Assembly (NCBI RefSeq): GCF_006738645.1
Contig: NZ_AP019700.1
Span: forward strand, 508,001-572,000
DNA: 64,000 nucleotides
Origin: Stella humosa
GTDB lineage: Bacteria; Pseudomonadota; Alphaproteobacteria; ATCC43930; Allostellaceae
Reading direction: 5' to 3'
Numbering within the stretch: position 1 is the stretch's first letter; each line of letters opens with the position of its first letter. The position numbers were made by a program, and so were the translations under genes. Under the pieces are notes generated by a model that saw only the letters and a program-made list of their open reading frames with translations, was not told the DNA's origin and did no database searches. Of the stretch, positions 7,821-23,888 are shown one piece after another.

Positions 7821-8264
7821 CTACGCGCGCGGCAGGTCGGCCATGCGGGCGGTCGACTCCGCCGTCTCGGCCTCTTCCTCCAGCCGCTCCATGTCGTCGT
7901 CGCTCAGGCCGAAATGGTGGCCGATCTCGTGGATCAGCACGTGGCGGACGATGTGCAGCAGGTCGTCCCCGGTCTCGCACCACAGGTCGAGGATCGGCCG
8001 GCGATAGAGGAAGATCATGTCCATGTGCGGCACGGGGTCGGAGACGCTCTTGTGCAGCATCGACACCCCGCGATAGAGCCCCAGCAGGTCGAAGGGGCTT
8101 TCCAGCTCCATCTCTTCCTCGGTGTCCTCGTCGGGGAAGTCCTCGACCCGGATGACGACGTCGCGCGCGTGCTGGCGCAGTTCCCAGGGAATGGCCTGGA
8201 AGCCGATCCGGCCCAGCCCCTCGATATCGGCGAGGCTGGGGGCAGTGCCCGGAAAGCCGCTCAT
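7821..8264 (-). CDS. Small zinc metallopeptidase-like protein (minimal HEXXH family)
   Basis: Cytosolic protein of 147 residues with the zinc motif HEIGHHFGLSDDDME near residues 112-126, in which H112, E113, H116 and the downstream D/E are plausible metal and catalytic residues. An acidic linker (EDTEEEMELE) follows EDFPDE. This matches the widespread bacterial family annotated as metallopeptidase family protein, often found near RppH or tRNA genes in alphaproteobacteria. Its ATG overlaps the TGA of rppH (ATGA), so it is translationally coupled to it. The physiological substrate is unknown. Confidence 0.85.
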   Translation of the reverse strand: MSGFPGTAPSLADIEGLGRIGFQAIPWELRQHARDVVIRVEDFPDEDTEEEMELESPFDLLGLYRGVSMLHKSVSDPVPHMDMIFLYRRPILDLWCETGDDLLHIVRHVLIHEIGHHFGLSDDDMERLEEEAETAESTARMADLPRA

Positions 8265-8743
8265 CGGGGCAGGAACGGCGCGAATTCGGCGAGGATGGCC
8301 GTGTAGATGTCGCGCTTGAAGGGGACGATCAGCTTCGGCACCTCGACTGCGTCGACCCACTTCCAGGCCAGGAACTCCGGATGCTCGGTTTCCAGGTTGA
8401 TCTCCGAATCCTCGCCGTCGAAGCGGAAGGCGAACCATTTCTGCGTCTGGCCGCGATAGCGCCCGCGCCACAGCTTGCCGGCCAGGTCGGGCGGCAGGTC
8501 GTAGCTGTACCAGTCCCGGCTTTCGCCCAGGAACGCGCCGTTGCAGGTGCCGATCTCCTCGCACAGCTCGCGGCTGGCGGCCTCGATCGGCGTCTCGCCC
8601 CGGTCGATGCCACCCTGGGGCATCTGCCATGCGTCGCTCGGCATGTCGATGCGCTGCGCCACCAGCACCTGGCCCTCGCGATTGAGGACCATGATGCCGA
8701 CGGCGCGGCGATAGGGCAGGCTTGCGGTTGCTTCTCTGGTCAT
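8261..8743 (-). CDS. rppH: RNA pyrophosphohydrolase (Nudix)
   Basis: Nudix hydrolase of 160 residues that removes pyrophosphate from the 5' end of mRNA to trigger decay, or cleaves dinucleoside polyphosphates. The Nudix box is MPQGGIDRGETPIEAASREL followed by CEEIG, preceded by the RppH/NudH-typical AWQMPQGG. The PYRRAVGIMVLN start and WYSYDLPPDLAGKLW match alphaproteobacterial RppH. The ATG at 8743 is preferred; a TTG three codons upstream is possible. It lies downstream of ctpA, as in many alphaproteobacteria, and overlaps the metallopeptidase start. Confidence 0.93.
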   Translation of the reverse strand: MTREATASLPYRRAVGIMVLNREGQVLVAQRIDMPSDAWQMPQGGIDRGETPIEAASRELCEEIGTCNGAFLGESRDWYSYDLPPDLAGKLWRGRYRGQTQKWFAFRFDGEDSEINLETEHPEFLAWKWVDAVEVPKLIVPFKRDIYTAILAEFAPFLPR

Positions 8744-8770
8744 GCTGTCCAAACGGTCTTTTTCCGCGCC

Positions 8771-10105
8771 TCAGTTGGCCGTGCGCGACTGATAGAGCGA
8801 GATGCCGCGGATCATGTCGAGCGCCCGCTGGAGCTGGTAGTCCTCTTCCGGCGACACCGGTCCCTGGGGGCCGGAATCCTGGGTCGGCGTCGTGGCCGGG
8901 CCCTGGTTGGCCGGCACCGGCTGGGCTCCCGGCGGCTGGTCGGGGTTGCGCAGCGAGCCGCGCAGGTCCGCCTCGCGGCGCTGCGGGCCGGTCGCCACCT
9001 TCTCGATGCGGGCGGCCTCGACGACGATGTCGGGGTCGATGCCCTTGGCCTGGATCGAGCGGCCCGACGGCGTGTAGTAGCGCGCCGTGGTCAGCCGCAT
9101 GGCGCCGTGCCCGGCCAGCGGGATGATCGACTGCACCGAGCCCTTGCCGAAGCTGCGGGTGCCGAGGATGACGGCGCGGCGATGATCCTGCAGCGCGCCG
9201 GCCACGATCTCCGACGCCGAGGCCGAGCCGCCATTGATGAGGACGACCACCGGCTTGCCGTCGGCCAGGTCACCGGGCCGCGCGTTGTAGCGCTGGCCGT
9301 CGTCGGGCTTGCGCGCACGGGTCGAGACGATCTCGCCCTTCTCCAGGAAGGCGTCCGACACCGACACCGCCTGGTCGAGCAGGCCGCCCGGATTGTTGCG
9401 CAGGTCGAGAACGAAGCCCTTCAGCTTGTCGCCGGCCTCGGTCTTCAGCTTCTGCACGGCATTCTTCAGGCCGACGTCGGTCTGCTCGGTGAAGCTGGTG
9501 ATGCGGACATAGCCGATCTCCCCCTCCAGGCGCGAACGCACCGACTGCACCTTGATCACGGCGCGCGTCAGGGTCAGCTCGAACGGCTCGCCGGTGCCGC
9601 GGCGCACGGTCAGCTTGATGTCGCTGTTGACCGGGCCGCGCATCTTCTCGACGGCTTCCGGCAGGCTGAGGCCCAGCACCGCCTCGCCGTCGAGATGGGT
9701 GATGAGATCGTTCGGGCGCAGGCCCGCGCGCGCTGCCGGCGTCTCGTCGATCGGCGAGACGACCTTGACGACGCCGTTGTCCATCGTGACCTCGATGCCG
9801 AGGCCGCCGAACTCGCCGCGCGTCTGCACCTGCATGTCGCGGTAGTTCTTGGCGTTGAGGAAGCTCGAATGCGGGTCGAGCGACGACAGCATGCCGTTGA
9901 TCGCGGACTCGACGAGCTGCTCGTCGGTCACCTTCTCCACATAATCGGCGCGCACGCGCTCGAACACCTCGCCGAACAGGTTGAGCTGGCGATAGGTGTC
10001 GTTGCCGTTGCTGGCGCCGGTGTTCGTGCTCTGGGAGCCGGCCGGGAGGACCGTCCAAACAAGTGCCAGGCCCGCTATGGCCCAGGGTAGGGTCTTGCGC
10101 ATCAT
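8771..10105 (-). CDS. ctpA: Carboxy-terminal processing protease (S41, CtpA)
   Basis: Periplasmic serine protease of 444 residues. It has a signal peptide (about residues 1-24, ending AGS), an S41 N-terminal helix region, and a PDZ domain about residues 95-175 (GGLGIEVTMDNGVVKVVSPI). The catalytic core holds S296 in NGGSASASE and K321 in FGKGSVQ, the expected 25 residues apart. The Q/P-rich tail after about residue 385 is disordered. It processes or degrades periplasmic proteins by their C-termini. Its ATG overlaps the stop of the envC-like gene (ATGA), linking it to peptidoglycan remodelling. An equally good Met codon is second. Confidence 0.94.
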   Translation of the reverse strand: MMRKTLPWAIAGLALVWTVLPAGSQSTNTGASNGNDTYRQLNLFGEVFERVRADYVEKVTDEQLVESAINGMLSSLDPHSSFLNAKNYRDMQVQTRGEFGGLGIEVTMDNGVVKVVSPIDETPAARAGLRPNDLITHLDGEAVLGLSLPEAVEKMRGPVNSDIKLTVRRGTGEPFELTLTRAVIKVQSVRSRLEGEIGYVRITSFTEQTDVGLKNAVQKLKTEAGDKLKGFVLDLRNNPGGLLDQAVSVSDAFLEKGEIVSTRARKPDDGQRYNARPGDLADGKPVVVLINGGSASASEIVAGALQDHRRAVILGTRSFGKGSVQSIIPLAGHGAMRLTTARYYTPSGRSIQAKGIDPDIVVEAARIEKVATGPQRREADLRGSLRNPDQPPGAQPVPANQGPATTPTQDSGPQGPVSPEEDYQLQRALDMIRGISLYQSRTAN

Positions 10106-20553: not shown

Positions 20554-21417
20554 ATGATCGAGATCGTCATCGACCAGCGCCGCCGCGACATCGGCGGTGG
20601 CTTCGAGGTCGGCCGCGTCCTGCCCTTCGCCAAGCGGCGGATGGTCGGCCCCTTCGTCTTCTTCGACGAGATGGGCCCGGCCGACTTCCAGCCGGGCCTG
20701 CCGCAGAGCATGGACGTGCGGCCGCACCCGCATATCGGCCTCTCGACCGTCACTTACCTCTTCGCGGGCGAGATCATGCACCGCGACAGCCTCGGCACCG
20801 AGGCGGCGATCCGCCCGGCGGAGGTGAACTGGATGACCGCCGGGCGCGGCATCACCCATTCCGAGCGGTTCGAGAAGGCGCGCGCCGTGGGCGGGCCGCT
20901 GCATGGCATCCAGGCGTGGGTGGCGCTGCCGCGCGAGCATGAGGAAACCGACCCGGCCTTTGCCCATTACGGCCAGGATGCCCTGCCGACGTTCGAGGAA
21001 GGGGGCGTGCAGGGCCGCCTGATTGCCGGCCGCGCCCTGGGGCTGGAGGCGCAGGTGCAGACGCACTCGCCGATCTTCTACCTGCACTGGACGCTGGATG
21101 CCGGTGCCACCGCCGCCCTGCCGGACGACCATGCCGAGCGCGCGGTCTATGTCGTCAGCGGCGCCGTCGAGGTCGGCGGGCAGGCGGTGGCGGCAGGCCA
21201 GATGGCCGTGCTGACCCCGGGCGTTCCGGCCGCGATCCGGGCGACCCGCCCCGCGGTCGTCATGGCGCTGGGTGGCGAGCCCTTGGGCGAGCGCTTCATC
21301 GAATGGAACTTCGTCTCCTCCTCGAAGGAGCGCATCGAGCAGGCAAAGGCCGACTGGCGCGCCGGCCGGATGAAACTGCCCGACCTCGACGACAAGGAGT
21401 TCATCCCGCTGCCATAG
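20554..21417 (+). CDS. Pirin-family protein
   Basis: Bicupin of 287 residues. The pirin N-terminal cupin is evident: GPFVFFDEMGPADF, then RPHPHIGLSTVTYLFAGEI with the two metal-binding histidines, and MTAGRGITHSE. A C-terminal cupin follows (about 165-270). Pirins bind Fe and some act as quercetinases or redox sensors; which applies here cannot be told. The ATG at 20554 is chosen; an alternative start at 20518 adds 12 residues before the conserved fold. It is divergent from the flavoprotein monooxygenase. Confidence 0.9.
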   Translation: MIEIVIDQRRRDIGGGFEVGRVLPFAKRRMVGPFVFFDEMGPADFQPGLPQSMDVRPHPHIGLSTVTYLFAGEIMHRDSLGTEAAIRPAEVNWMTAGRGITHSERFEKARAVGGPLHGIQAWVALPREHEETDPAFAHYGQDALPTFEEGGVQGRLIAGRALGLEAQVQTHSPIFYLHWTLDAGATAALPDDHAERAVYVVSGAVEVGGQAVAAGQMAVLTPGVPAAIRATRPAVVMALGGEPLGERFIEWNFVSSSKERIEQAKADWRAGRMKLPDLDDKEFIPLP

Positions 21418-21434: not shown

Positions 21435-21881
21435 TCAGGCAACGGCGCGCAGGCCGGCCCGCAGCGCGCCCGGGTCGGCCGGCGCCATGTCCGCTTCGAC
21501 GGCGCCATGGGTCAGGCGCCAGATCGGCACCGCGTCGGCCAGTGCCTGATGGCCGGCCGGGGTCAGCGTCATGCGGCGGCTCCGCCGGTCGGCGGGGTCG
21601 ATGGCGATGGCCACCAGCCCGCGCCGCTCCAACGGTTTCAGGTTGGCCGTCAAGGTCGTGCGATCCATGGCCAGCAGTTGGGCCACCTGGGCCATGGTCG
21701 CCGGCACGGGGCGGTTCAGCGACATCAGCAGCGAGAACTGGCCGTGGGTCAGCCCCATCGGCCGCAGCGCCTCGTCGAAGCGCCGCGCCAGTGCGCGGGC
21801 GGCGCGCTGCACGTGCAGGCAGAGGCAGGTGTCGCGCACCTCCCGGCTGACGGCCAGGGGCAGGGGATCGACGTTTGACAT
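21435..21881 (-). CDS. MarR-family transcriptional regulator
   Basis: Winged-helix regulator of 148 residues. It shows LTHGQFSLLMSLNRP, MAQVAQLLAMDRTTLTANLK as the recognition region, and DRRSRRMTLTPAG as the wing. The N-terminus contains CLCLHVQRAARALARRF with two nearby cysteines (C19, C21), which could allow redox sensing; this is speculation. It is divergent from the MoaD/ThiS-like gene, and a perfect 12-bp palindrome lies 11 bp upstream of its ATG. It therefore probably represses both itself and that operon. Confidence 0.92.
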   Translation of the reverse strand: MSNVDPLPLAVSREVRDTCLCLHVQRAARALARRFDEALRPMGLTHGQFSLLMSLNRPVPATMAQVAQLLAMDRTTLTANLKPLERRGLVAIAIDPADRRSRRMTLTPAGHQALADAVPIWRLTHGAVEADMAPADPGALRAGLRAVA

Positions 21882-21892
21882 GGCTTATTTAC

Positions 21893-21904
21893 GTTGATAT
21901 CAAC
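21893..21904. promoter_or_regulatory. Perfect 12-bp palindrome, candidate MarR operator
   Basis: GTTGATATCAAC is perfectly self-complementary and sits in a short AT-rich gap between the divergent MarR and MoaD/ThiS-like genes. Its form matches the TTGATATCAA-type operators of MarR/OhrR-like repressors. Assignment to the adjacent MarR protein is inference. Confidence 0.65.
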
Positions 21905-21934
21905 TTAACTGGCAAGGACAGAGCGACAGGACCG

Positions 21935-22204
21935 ATGCCGACCGTTTCCTTCACGCGCGCCCTCGAACGCTTCCTGCCGGCACCGCCCGCGACGGTGGCC
22001 GGGGCGACGCTGGCGCAGGCGCTGGCGGCGGTGTTCGCGGACCGCCCGGCCCTGCGCGGCTATGTCCTGGACGACCAGGGGGCGCTGCGCCGCCACGTCG
22101 CCGTCTTCATCAACGGCCGGATGGTGCAGGACCGCCAGAAGCTGACGGATGCGGTCGGCGCGGACGACGAGATCCACGTGTTCCAGGCGCTCTCGGGCGG
22201 CTGA
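21935..22204 (+). CDS. MoaD/ThiS-family ubiquitin-like sulfur-carrier protein
   Basis: Beta-grasp protein of 89 residues that ends in SGG, the C-terminal di-glycine needed for adenylation and thiocarboxylation in MoaD, ThiS and similar carriers. The middle reads RHVAVFINGRMVQDRQKLTDAV then ADDEIHVFQALSGG, typical of the MoaD fold. The ATG at 21935 is chosen; an earlier start at 21875 would run through the palindrome. It is followed 11 bp later by an Asp-box propeller gene. No MoeB/ThiF activating enzyme or MoaE is nearby, so it may serve a dedicated role rather than molybdopterin or thiamine synthesis. Confidence 0.85.
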   Translation: MPTVSFTRALERFLPAPPATVAGATLAQALAAVFADRPALRGYVLDDQGALRRHVAVFINGRMVQDRQKLTDAVGADDEIHVFQALSGG

Positions 22205-22215
22205 CGGAGGAAGCG

Positions 22216-23304
22216 ATGGCAGACCGGATTCATGTCGGCACCCGCAAGGGCCTGTTCGAGTTGGAACGACGCGGCGGCGGCTGGGACGTCGCCCGCACGC
22301 ACTTCCTGGGCGACCCGGTGTCGGCGGTGCTGGCGCAGGCGGACGGCAGCCTGCTGGCGGCCCTCGATCTCGGCCATTTCGGTGCCAAGCTGTGGCGTCG
22401 CTCGCCGGAAGGCGATTGGCAGGAACTGGCGGCACCGGCCTTCCCGCCCAAGCCCGAGGATGCCGTGGATGACCCGCACCCCTGGTCGCTCGGTCGCATC
22501 TGGGCGCTGGAGCCGGGCGGCGTGCCGGGCCGCGTCTGGGCCGGGACAATGCCGGGCGGGTTGTTCCGGTCCGACGATTGGGGCGCGACCTGGGCGCTGA
22601 ACGAGCCCTTGTGGCGGATGCCCGACCGGCGGCGCTGGATGGGCGTGGCCGGCGGCGAGCAGCCCGGCATCAGCACCGTCCTGGTCGACCCGCGCAACCC
22701 GGCCGACATCCGGCTCGGCATCTCCACGGCCGGCGTCTGGGCCACCACGGACACCGGCGCGAGCTGGAGCCTGATCAACCAGGGCATGTACAACGAGTAC
22801 ATGCCGCCCGGGCAGGAGGGCGACCCGATTGCCCAGGACATCCACCAGCTCGCCCGCTGTGCCGCCCGCCCCGAGGTGATGTGGTGCCAGCACCACAACG
22901 GCGTCTTCCGCTCGGAGGATGCGGGCGCCAACTGGGCGGAGCTGACGGCGATCCGCCCGTCCAAGTTCGGCTTTGCCGTGGCCGCCCACCCGACCGACCC
23001 GGACACGGCGTGGTTCGTGCCGTCCGCGAAGGACGAGCGGCGCTTCCCCGTCGACGGCAAGGTCGTGGTCGCCCGCACGCAGGATGGCGGCCGCAGCTTC
23101 GAGGTGCTGTCCCAGGGCCTGCCGCAGCGCCATGCCTATGACCTGGTGTGGCGCCACGGGCTGGCGGTCGACCCGGCCGGGCGGCAGCTCGCCTTCGGCT
23201 CGACCAGTGGCGGCCTCTGGATATCGGGCGATGCCGGCCAGTCCTGGGACGCGCTCGACGCCCGGCTGCCGCCGGTGGCCTTCGTGCGCTTCGCCGCGGC
23301 GTAG
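22216..23304 (+). CDS. Asp-box (BNR) beta-propeller protein, sialidase-like fold
   Basis: Protein of 362 residues with repeated Asp boxes (SxDxGxxW-like): SDDWGATW, TTDTGASW, SEDAGANW, TQDGGRSF and SGDAGQSW, spaced as in a six- or seven-bladed propeller. There is no signal peptide, so it is probably cytoplasmic. The sialidase catalytic Arg triad is not evident, so glycosidase activity should not be assumed. It is preceded by GGAGG and coupled closely to the MoaD/ThiS-like gene, under the presumed MarR operator. The function is unknown. Confidence 0.8.
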   Translation: MADRIHVGTRKGLFELERRGGGWDVARTHFLGDPVSAVLAQADGSLLAALDLGHFGAKLWRRSPEGDWQELAAPAFPPKPEDAVDDPHPWSLGRIWALEPGGVPGRVWAGTMPGGLFRSDDWGATWALNEPLWRMPDRRRWMGVAGGEQPGISTVLVDPRNPADIRLGISTAGVWATTDTGASWSLINQGMYNEYMPPGQEGDPIAQDIHQLARCAARPEVMWCQHHNGVFRSEDAGANWAELTAIRPSKFGFAVAAHPTDPDTAWFVPSAKDERRFPVDGKVVVARTQDGGRSFEVLSQGLPQRHAYDLVWRHGLAVDPAGRQLAFGSTSGGLWISGDAGQSWDALDARLPPVAFVRFAAA

Positions 23305-23330: not shown

Positions 23331-23888
23331 TCAGTCGCTCGGCAGCGGGAATTCCTCCAGATACTTCTGGTAGTCGTCCTCCACGCCGATCTGCATCGTC
23401 TCCAGGATGCGGACCACGGCGTTGTAGAAGCCAATGGTGATGACGAGGTCGGTCAGGTGCTCGGTCGAGAGCGCCGCTGCCAGCTCGGCGAAGGTGGCGT
23501 CGGACGCCGCCAGGTCCGTCGTCATCTCGCGCGCGGCACGGAGTGCCGCCTTGATCACCGGCTCCAGGTCGGAGGGGCGGCCTTCGCTCTCGGCGATCAT
23601 GCCGCGGATGTCGTCGTCGGAGACGCCGAAGTCGCGGCTGATCTTGATGTGGTGGGAATATTCGTACTTCGAGCGGGTCAGCCAGCCGACCTGGAGGATC
23701 GCCAGTTCGCGCAGGCGGGGGTCGAGCTTGCTGTCGAAGCGAATGAACTGGCCGAGGCCGCTGAACCGGCGCAGCGCGTTCGGGCTGTGCGCCAGGGTGC
23801 GGTAGAGGTTGATGTTGCGCTTCAGCAGGTCCTGGTTTTCAGGCGCCAGGTTCTCGCGGTCGAGATAGGGGACTCGGGCCATCTTCAT
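23331..23888 (-). CDS. Carboxymuconolactone decarboxylase-family protein
   Basis: All-helical CMD/AhpD-fold protein of 185 residues. The core is LRELAILQVGWLTRSKYEYS followed by HHIKISRDFGVSDDDI; the AhpD CxxC pair is absent (YEYSHH instead), which suggests a decarboxylase-like or other non-peroxidase function. The N-terminal RVPYLDRENL is typical of a subgroup often found in aromatic or organic-acid catabolism. The ATG at 23888 overlaps the TGA of the PPK2 gene; an ATG two codons later is possible. The link with polyphosphate kinase is unexplained. Confidence 0.85.
   Translation of the reverse strand: MKMARVPYLDRENLAPENQDLLKRNINLYRTLAHSPNALRRFSGLGQFIRFDSKLDPRLRELAILQVGWLTRSKYEYSHHIKISRDFGVSDDDIRGMIAESEGRPSDLEPVIKAALRAAREMTTDLAASDATFAELAAALSTEHLTDLVITIGFYNAVVRILETMQIGVEDDYQKYLEEFPLPSD

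Follow-up and report, generated by a model that had tools for sequence, protein, structure and literature searches.

A ubiquitin-like carrier gene and an Asp-box beta-propeller gene lie side by side in Stella humosa and in bacteria of several phyla

In the ThiS–ThiG and MoaD–MoaE systems, a beta-grasp carrier with a C-terminal GG is encoded beside one dedicated partner, through which sulfur is passed to a substrate. E1 enzymes act on carriers whose C-terminal GG is free. The carrier fold is shared by the CysO–CysM and BexX/CysO systems (PDB entries 3dwg and 4n6e), and in the thiosugar pathway the acceptor borrows the carriers and the E1 of the cell. SAMP1 and Urm1 are related proteins that act as modifiers. 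The locus described here, from the alphaproteobacterium Stella humosa, encodes a GG-ending ubiquitin-like beta-grasp protein (hereafter the Ubl) together with an Asp-box beta-propeller. It has the layout of ThiS–ThiG and MoaD–MoaE, both of which are also seen in this genome, but the partner is a propeller, and the window (the whole 64,000-nucleotide stretch of DNA analysed, contig positions 508001-572000) contains neither thi nor moa genes. CysO–CysM and BexX/CysO differ in that here the carrier appears to be reserved for its partner, which has the fold of a propeller. SAMP1 provides both the best NCBIfam model and the best fold match for the Ubl, but in contrast to the SAMP1/Urm1 modifiers the protein is bacterial, is paired with a propeller and scores under the SAMP1 cut-off.

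In the window, a MosR-like MarR-family regulator of 148 aa is encoded on the minus strand (21435..21881; Pfam MarR and MarR_2 above cut-off), divergently from the 89 aa Ubl (21935..22204, plus strand; Pfam ThiS; C-terminus QALSGG). The alignment of its relatives begins at the same methionine, in support of a Ubl start at 21935. Between the two divergent genes lies a perfect 12-bp palindrome, GTTGATATCAAC (21893..21904), which is probably their operator and has no second copy in the 5.83-Mb genome. Direct reading of the sequence behind the Ubl gene gives a probable ribosome-binding site, GGAGGAAG (22206..22213, plus strand), for the propeller gene (22216..23304, plus strand), whose 362 aa product is identified as a seven-bladed Asp-box beta-propeller from its predicted model and from its likeness to PDB entry 3b7f by profile and by fold. 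All the elements named in the initial annotation (the MarR gene, the palindrome, the GG-ending Ubl and the Asp-box propeller) are present as it placed them, and measurement confirmed the 11 bp that it gave as the spacing of the Ubl and propeller genes (22204 versus 22216). Its remark that no MoeB/ThiF, MoaE or thiamine genes lie nearby also stands for the families searched, the PF00899, PF02391 and PF05690 matches of the genome all falling outside 508001-572000. The genome holds two further PF02597 matches, both outside the window. Just before the marR region is the gene for a protein named by eye as pirin-like (20554-21417, plus strand), and behind the propeller gene is one (23331-23888, minus strand) whose product resembles by eye carboxymuconolactone decarboxylase/AhpD, without the C-x-x-C of that family.

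The Ubl scores 37 bits against Pfam ThiS (cut-off 22.5) and its AlphaFold2 model (pLDDT 89.9) adopts the beta-grasp fold. Foldseek places SAMP1, a MoaD-related protein and CysO nearest to this model, with BexX-bound CysO also among the closest structures and Urm1 structures lower in the list (for example the Ahp1–Urm1 complex 7q5n, E 0.014). All 50 aligned Ubls match the NCBIfam SAMP1 model; the window protein itself reaches 55.6 bits against the SAMP1 equivalog NF041918, under the curated cut-off of 60, and 18.5 bits against the ThiS model TIGR01683, under the cut-off of 37.45. These comparisons support its description as a SAMP1/CysO-like beta-grasp carrier, set apart from MoaD and ThiS. An exact C-terminal GG is found in the window Ubl and in 77 of the 78 Ubl-first loci among the best 80 of 527 relatives, the exception ending in GGST; the longer ending QALSGG is shared by 59 of these 78. 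Where the propeller gene comes first, the GG end is present in 18 of the 19 distinct loci read. This near-invariance of the free GG argues for activation by an E1. In a Nonomuraea record (L197, 7066-7380), a Ubl-like protein encoded directly behind the propeller ends in VLPALA, without the GG.

The predicted model of the propeller (pLDDT 94.2, pTM 0.92) is that of a single propeller of 362 aa. Its best match by fold is 3b7f (TM 0.89, 28% identity), which is also matched by the family profile (E 3e-77, positions 5-364). 3b7f is Reut_B4987 of Ralstonia eutropha JMP134, a seven-bladed protein whose function is listed as 'Not known' in PMC2716378; like the window protein it is an Asp-box propeller, and it carries the same five invariant polar residues. 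These residues, H210, Q225, H227, R276 and R313, are invariant over 37 propellers, a set made up of distant relatives (150-320 bits), ten hand-picked close ones, a lone propeller (L021), the 3b7f piece and the window protein. K11 is present in 36 of the 37, the 3b7f piece beginning behind this position. By the strand order of the model, the invariant residues and K11 fall in d-a or b-c loops, so that on topology, rather than coordinates, the conserved residues would occupy one face of the propeller and the Asp-boxes the other. In databases the propeller genes are named exo-alpha-sialidase or sialidase family protein. The protein scores under the cut-offs of the BNR, BNR_2, BNR_6 and Sortilin models, has no signal peptide that can be seen by eye and lacks the tandem propellers of GH74; on family models and architecture it would not be placed among the GH74 or sialidase glycoside hydrolases.

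To assess conservation, the propeller alignment was scanned against named genomes and the best 80 of 527 relatives were kept, a sample that favours close relatives. In 78 of these 80 loci a Ubl gene lies upstream on the same strand, at a distance of -4 to 371 bp (81 bp or less in 69 of the 78). Going by record titles, members of the Alpha-, Beta-, Gamma- and Deltaproteobacteria are among these best 80 of 527, as are Planctomycetota and, represented by Bryobacterales and Holophagaceae, Acidobacteriota. An Arthrobacter plasmid record holds a propeller-first pair whose Ubl ends in VAGG. At the level of the order, 36 of 43 genomes gave a propeller match; all 19 strong ones (>350 bits) have an adjoining Ubl, and the remaining 17 are weak matches to other Asp-box proteins or, in one case (G012), a fragment. 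A draw of 385 genomes from the class was searched with a Ubl profile (E 1e-6) and a propeller profile (E 1e-30), each search scoring only the best few candidates per genome. Ubl matches numbered 53, spread over 52 genomes, and propeller matches 60, spread over 59. With no rows dropped, 50 of the 53 Ubl matches adjoin a propeller on the same strand, 28 of them Ubl-first and near the window's type and 22 propeller-first and more distant; reading of 20 fetched regions added two further pairs (G046 and G267), which are included in the E1 and MoaE counts given below. Linkage confined to this one locus, which the initial annotation had named as grounds for abandoning its idea, is thus excluded, the pair being found in several phyla and in two gene orders.

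Adjacency that persists in both gene orders is better explained by function than by an inherited neighbourhood, and suggests that the two genes form a conserved functional module whose products work together. Ubl and propeller distances are correlated (r 0.77, uncorrected for species history, over 77 of the 78 pairs, one with a propeller of <330 aa having been dropped), the largest value in 2000 permutations being 0.12. ORF clustering over the 80 loci found no third conserved gene: apart from frames overlapping the pair, clusters extend to 15 loci at most, the largest being a sensor-kinase type (15 loci, by eye), an ABC ATPase (9, by eye) and marR (6). For a Pfam search, a home-made gene call on 46 loci supplied 44 neighbours upstream of the pair and 46 downstream; TetR was found in 4 of the 46, and no other family more than three times. 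A phage origin was rejected, there being no matches among 50,697 phage records. A defence system was likewise rejected: no PADLOC model covers the Ubl or the propeller, and the MarR protein matches five models only, and weakly.

The best PDB relative of the MarR protein is 4fx0/4fx4 (E 8e-22 for 4fx0, with which its C-x-C near the N-terminus, DTCLCLH, aligns). Both entries are MosR of Mycobacterium tuberculosis, a MarR-family protein with different target genes that, according to PMC5823404, has a Cys10–Cys12 disulphide on helix 1. The C-x-C is present in all 22 distinct homologous MarR loci that remained after duplicate records of one genome had been merged by hand. Upstream of marR in 18 of these 22 is the palindrome core TTGATATCAA, and three of the other four are one base off by eye. 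Loci with the core include four of the propeller-first type (G245, G357, G200 and G408) and L021, in which marR faces a propeller without a Ubl, implying that in part of the class the propeller has long been associated with this regulator and its operator. The palindrome was rejected as a control element common to all pairs, since TTGATATCAA lies within 200 bp before the Ubl in only 5 of the 78 named loci (best 80 of 527). The proposal of MarR control therefore holds for the window's lineage and some relatives, but not for the pair in general. In this lineage, the regulator's likeness to MosR would imply redox control of the operon.

An E1 would have to act from elsewhere in the genome. No E1 gene adjoins the pair in the window genome, and the nearest seen beside any pair lies ~10 kb away (G181). 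The E1 family PF00899 was matched in all 48 propeller genomes chosen for this search, including two whose propeller lacks a neighbouring Ubl (G016, and G424 with the L036 propeller). Of the 385 genomes in the class sample 311 contain the family; for the 52 pair genomes the number is 51 (one-sided Fisher P ~1e-4), an association confounded with genome size and with MoaE. One genome with the pair (G331, 78% complete) has no E1 match and another (G408) only a weak one of 34 residues. The sole full-length E1 gene of the window genome itself (L229, 674-1525) is in two frames as deposited. Its counterpart in a related genome (G001, L232) is open, and the break may be a sequencing error or a real lesion.

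The Ubl also has to be placed beside the two cofactor pathways that use such carriers. The window genome encodes a separate GG carrier directly before moaE (4457027-4457266) and another directly before thiG. ThiG was matched in 67 of 80 pair genomes, strongly in 56, leaving 24 without a strong match, and MoaE in 78 of the 80, a figure counted among pair genomes only. The possibility, raised at the outset, that the carrier simply serves molybdopterin or thiamine synthesis is thus weakened by the genome's own moaD–moaE and thiS–thiG and by the 24 genomes without a strong ThiG match, but the frequency of MoaE speaks against full separation, and the Ubl may be linked to molybdenum-cofactor biology.

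Known sulfur carriers and their acceptors show this arrangement, a single GG carrier next to a single partner; with the near-invariant GG this makes an E1-activated Ubl dedicated to the propeller as its acceptor enzyme the best reading of the pair, one that we hold tentatively and with somewhat less than even confidence. On this model, a MoeB/ThiF-type E1 of the cell, acting in trans, would activate the C-terminal glycine of the Ubl, and the activated tail would be converted to a thiocarboxylate. The propeller, as dedicated partner, would accept this tail at its conserved face and use the sulfur on a substrate, in the manner of ThiG with ThiS or of MoaE with MoaD. In the window's lineage, a MosR-like thiol-switch repressor would sit at TTGATATCAA and release the operon upon oxidation of its C-x-C. 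Against the model stand the lone propellers described below, the lack of an adjacent E1 and the Nonomuraea Ubl, whose missing GG slightly lowered our confidence in it.

The main rival, owing to the nearness of the Ubl to SAMP1 and the redox-type regulator, has the Ubl conjugated to proteins under oxidative stress in the manner of SAMP1 or Urm1, with the propeller as receptor, main target or E3-like platform. Propellers are often protein-binding. The match of all 50 aligned Ubls to the SAMP1 model, SAMP1 as nearest fold (with Urm1 structures such as 7q5n further down) and the MosR-like regulator all speak for conjugation, but no E2, E3 or JAB protein is found in either list of families (25 of 65 covered), for the 44 neighbours upstream or for the 46 downstream, the families beyond these having single members, and we consider it unlikely. 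Slightly less likely is its fullest form, a widespread bacterial counterpart of urmylation or SAMPylation in which an oxidant-induced modifier would be activated by the E1 of a cofactor pathway and attached to proteins by way of its dedicated propeller, acting as receptor or ligase platform, with the operon under a thiol-switch repressor.

If instead the Ubl were a subunit of the propeller protein with a structural or regulatory role, and kept its GG for binding rather than chemistry, neither the strict pairing nor the lack of an adjacent E1 would be surprising, and the Nonomuraea pair, kept despite a Ubl ending in VLPALA, slightly raised our estimate of such a non-covalent role. A bare terminal GG in 77 of 78 Ubl-first loci (best 80 of 527) and 18 of 19 propeller-first loci is, however, just what E1 activation demands, and the proposal is on balance rather unlikely.

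We regard as distinctly improbable a side branch of molybdenum-cofactor metabolism, with the Ubl a second MoaD-like carrier serving molybdoenzyme or cofactor maturation together with the propeller. MoaE is near-universal in the pair genomes whereas a strong ThiG match is missing from 24 of 80, but the MoaE count covers pair genomes alone, moaD–moaE is a separate pair in this genome, and Molybdopterin-oxidoreductase occurs once among the 44 upstream neighbours and not at all among the 25 families listed for the 46 downstream. Incidental adjacency, or a propeller that is an ordinary glycosidase as its annotation as exo-alpha-sialidase has it, draws on those database names and on the existence of lone propellers, but the former is rejected by linkage far beyond chance in two gene orders and the latter is opposed by the lack of a visible signal peptide, by BNR models under cut-off, by a single propeller in place of the GH74 tandem and by a nearest structure, 3b7f, whose function is listed as not known in PMC2716378, so that we give them almost no credence.

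That the two genes adjoin in many unrelated bacteria suggests that their products carry out together an undescribed step of sulfur transfer or protein tagging, possibly one controlled by oxidation. The initial annotation knew of no described pathway for it, and our limited search of the open literature (titles and the starts of abstracts) likewise returned no description, evidence that is weak as regards ThiS, a term confounded with the word 'this'. In the accessible parts of two surveys of prokaryotic and archaeal Ubl gene context (PMC1779556 and PMC2948915), the terms propeller, BNR, sialidase and WD40 are absent, and the matching terms in PMC3495685 are unrelated to the pair. The pair hints at an additional ubiquitin-like pathway spread over several bacterial phyla, and provides a candidate partner for 3b7f, solved without a function, and for genes named exo-alpha-sialidase or sialidase family protein. 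Were the carrier activated, it would represent either a bacterial modifier system or a new route of sulfur transfer, and in the window's lineage oxidation would be the likely signal.

Propellers without a Ubl occur at several levels. Among the best 80 of 527 relatives, the two loci without a Ubl are L035, with an intact propeller, and L036, in which the propeller gene (8001-9074) is broken by one in-frame stop; its contig showed no Ubl, and the break may reflect decay of an orphan partner. In the class draw, 8 of the 59 propeller genomes have no Ubl neighbour that could be seen; three of them (G116, G266 and G354) lie at contig ends, and another (G163) has an intact close propeller homologue and no Ubl match genome-wide. 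L021 is a lone propeller facing marR. Of 16 plasmid records, eight were read for a Ubl: three hold pairs, among them L198 of Cupriavidus metallidurans CH34, one is the Nonomuraea record described above, and four, from a Streptomyces and three Rhodobacterales, have the propeller alone. In one of the latter, from Rhodobacter sp. CZR27 (L234, 1-3355), the lone propeller gene lies divergently to egtB and egtD, annotated as ergothioneine genes.

Ubls are found away from propellers too. In one genome of the class (G093, L185), a Ubl ending in ALAGG lies ~0.4 kb from an E1 match with no propeller seen, a possible separate Ubl–E1 unit. A phylum draw of 398 genomes gave a Ubl match in 50 (one of which, G532, was left unread): 15 have an adjoining propeller and 34 belong to families f188 and f207, so that the Ubl profile also picks up another group of Ubls. 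The 15 f188 loci read, none with a propeller within the fetched stretch, encode MoaD/SAMP1-like Ubls that end in AIAGG followed by a single C, K, R or S and that, judged by this ending, would need trimming before activation.
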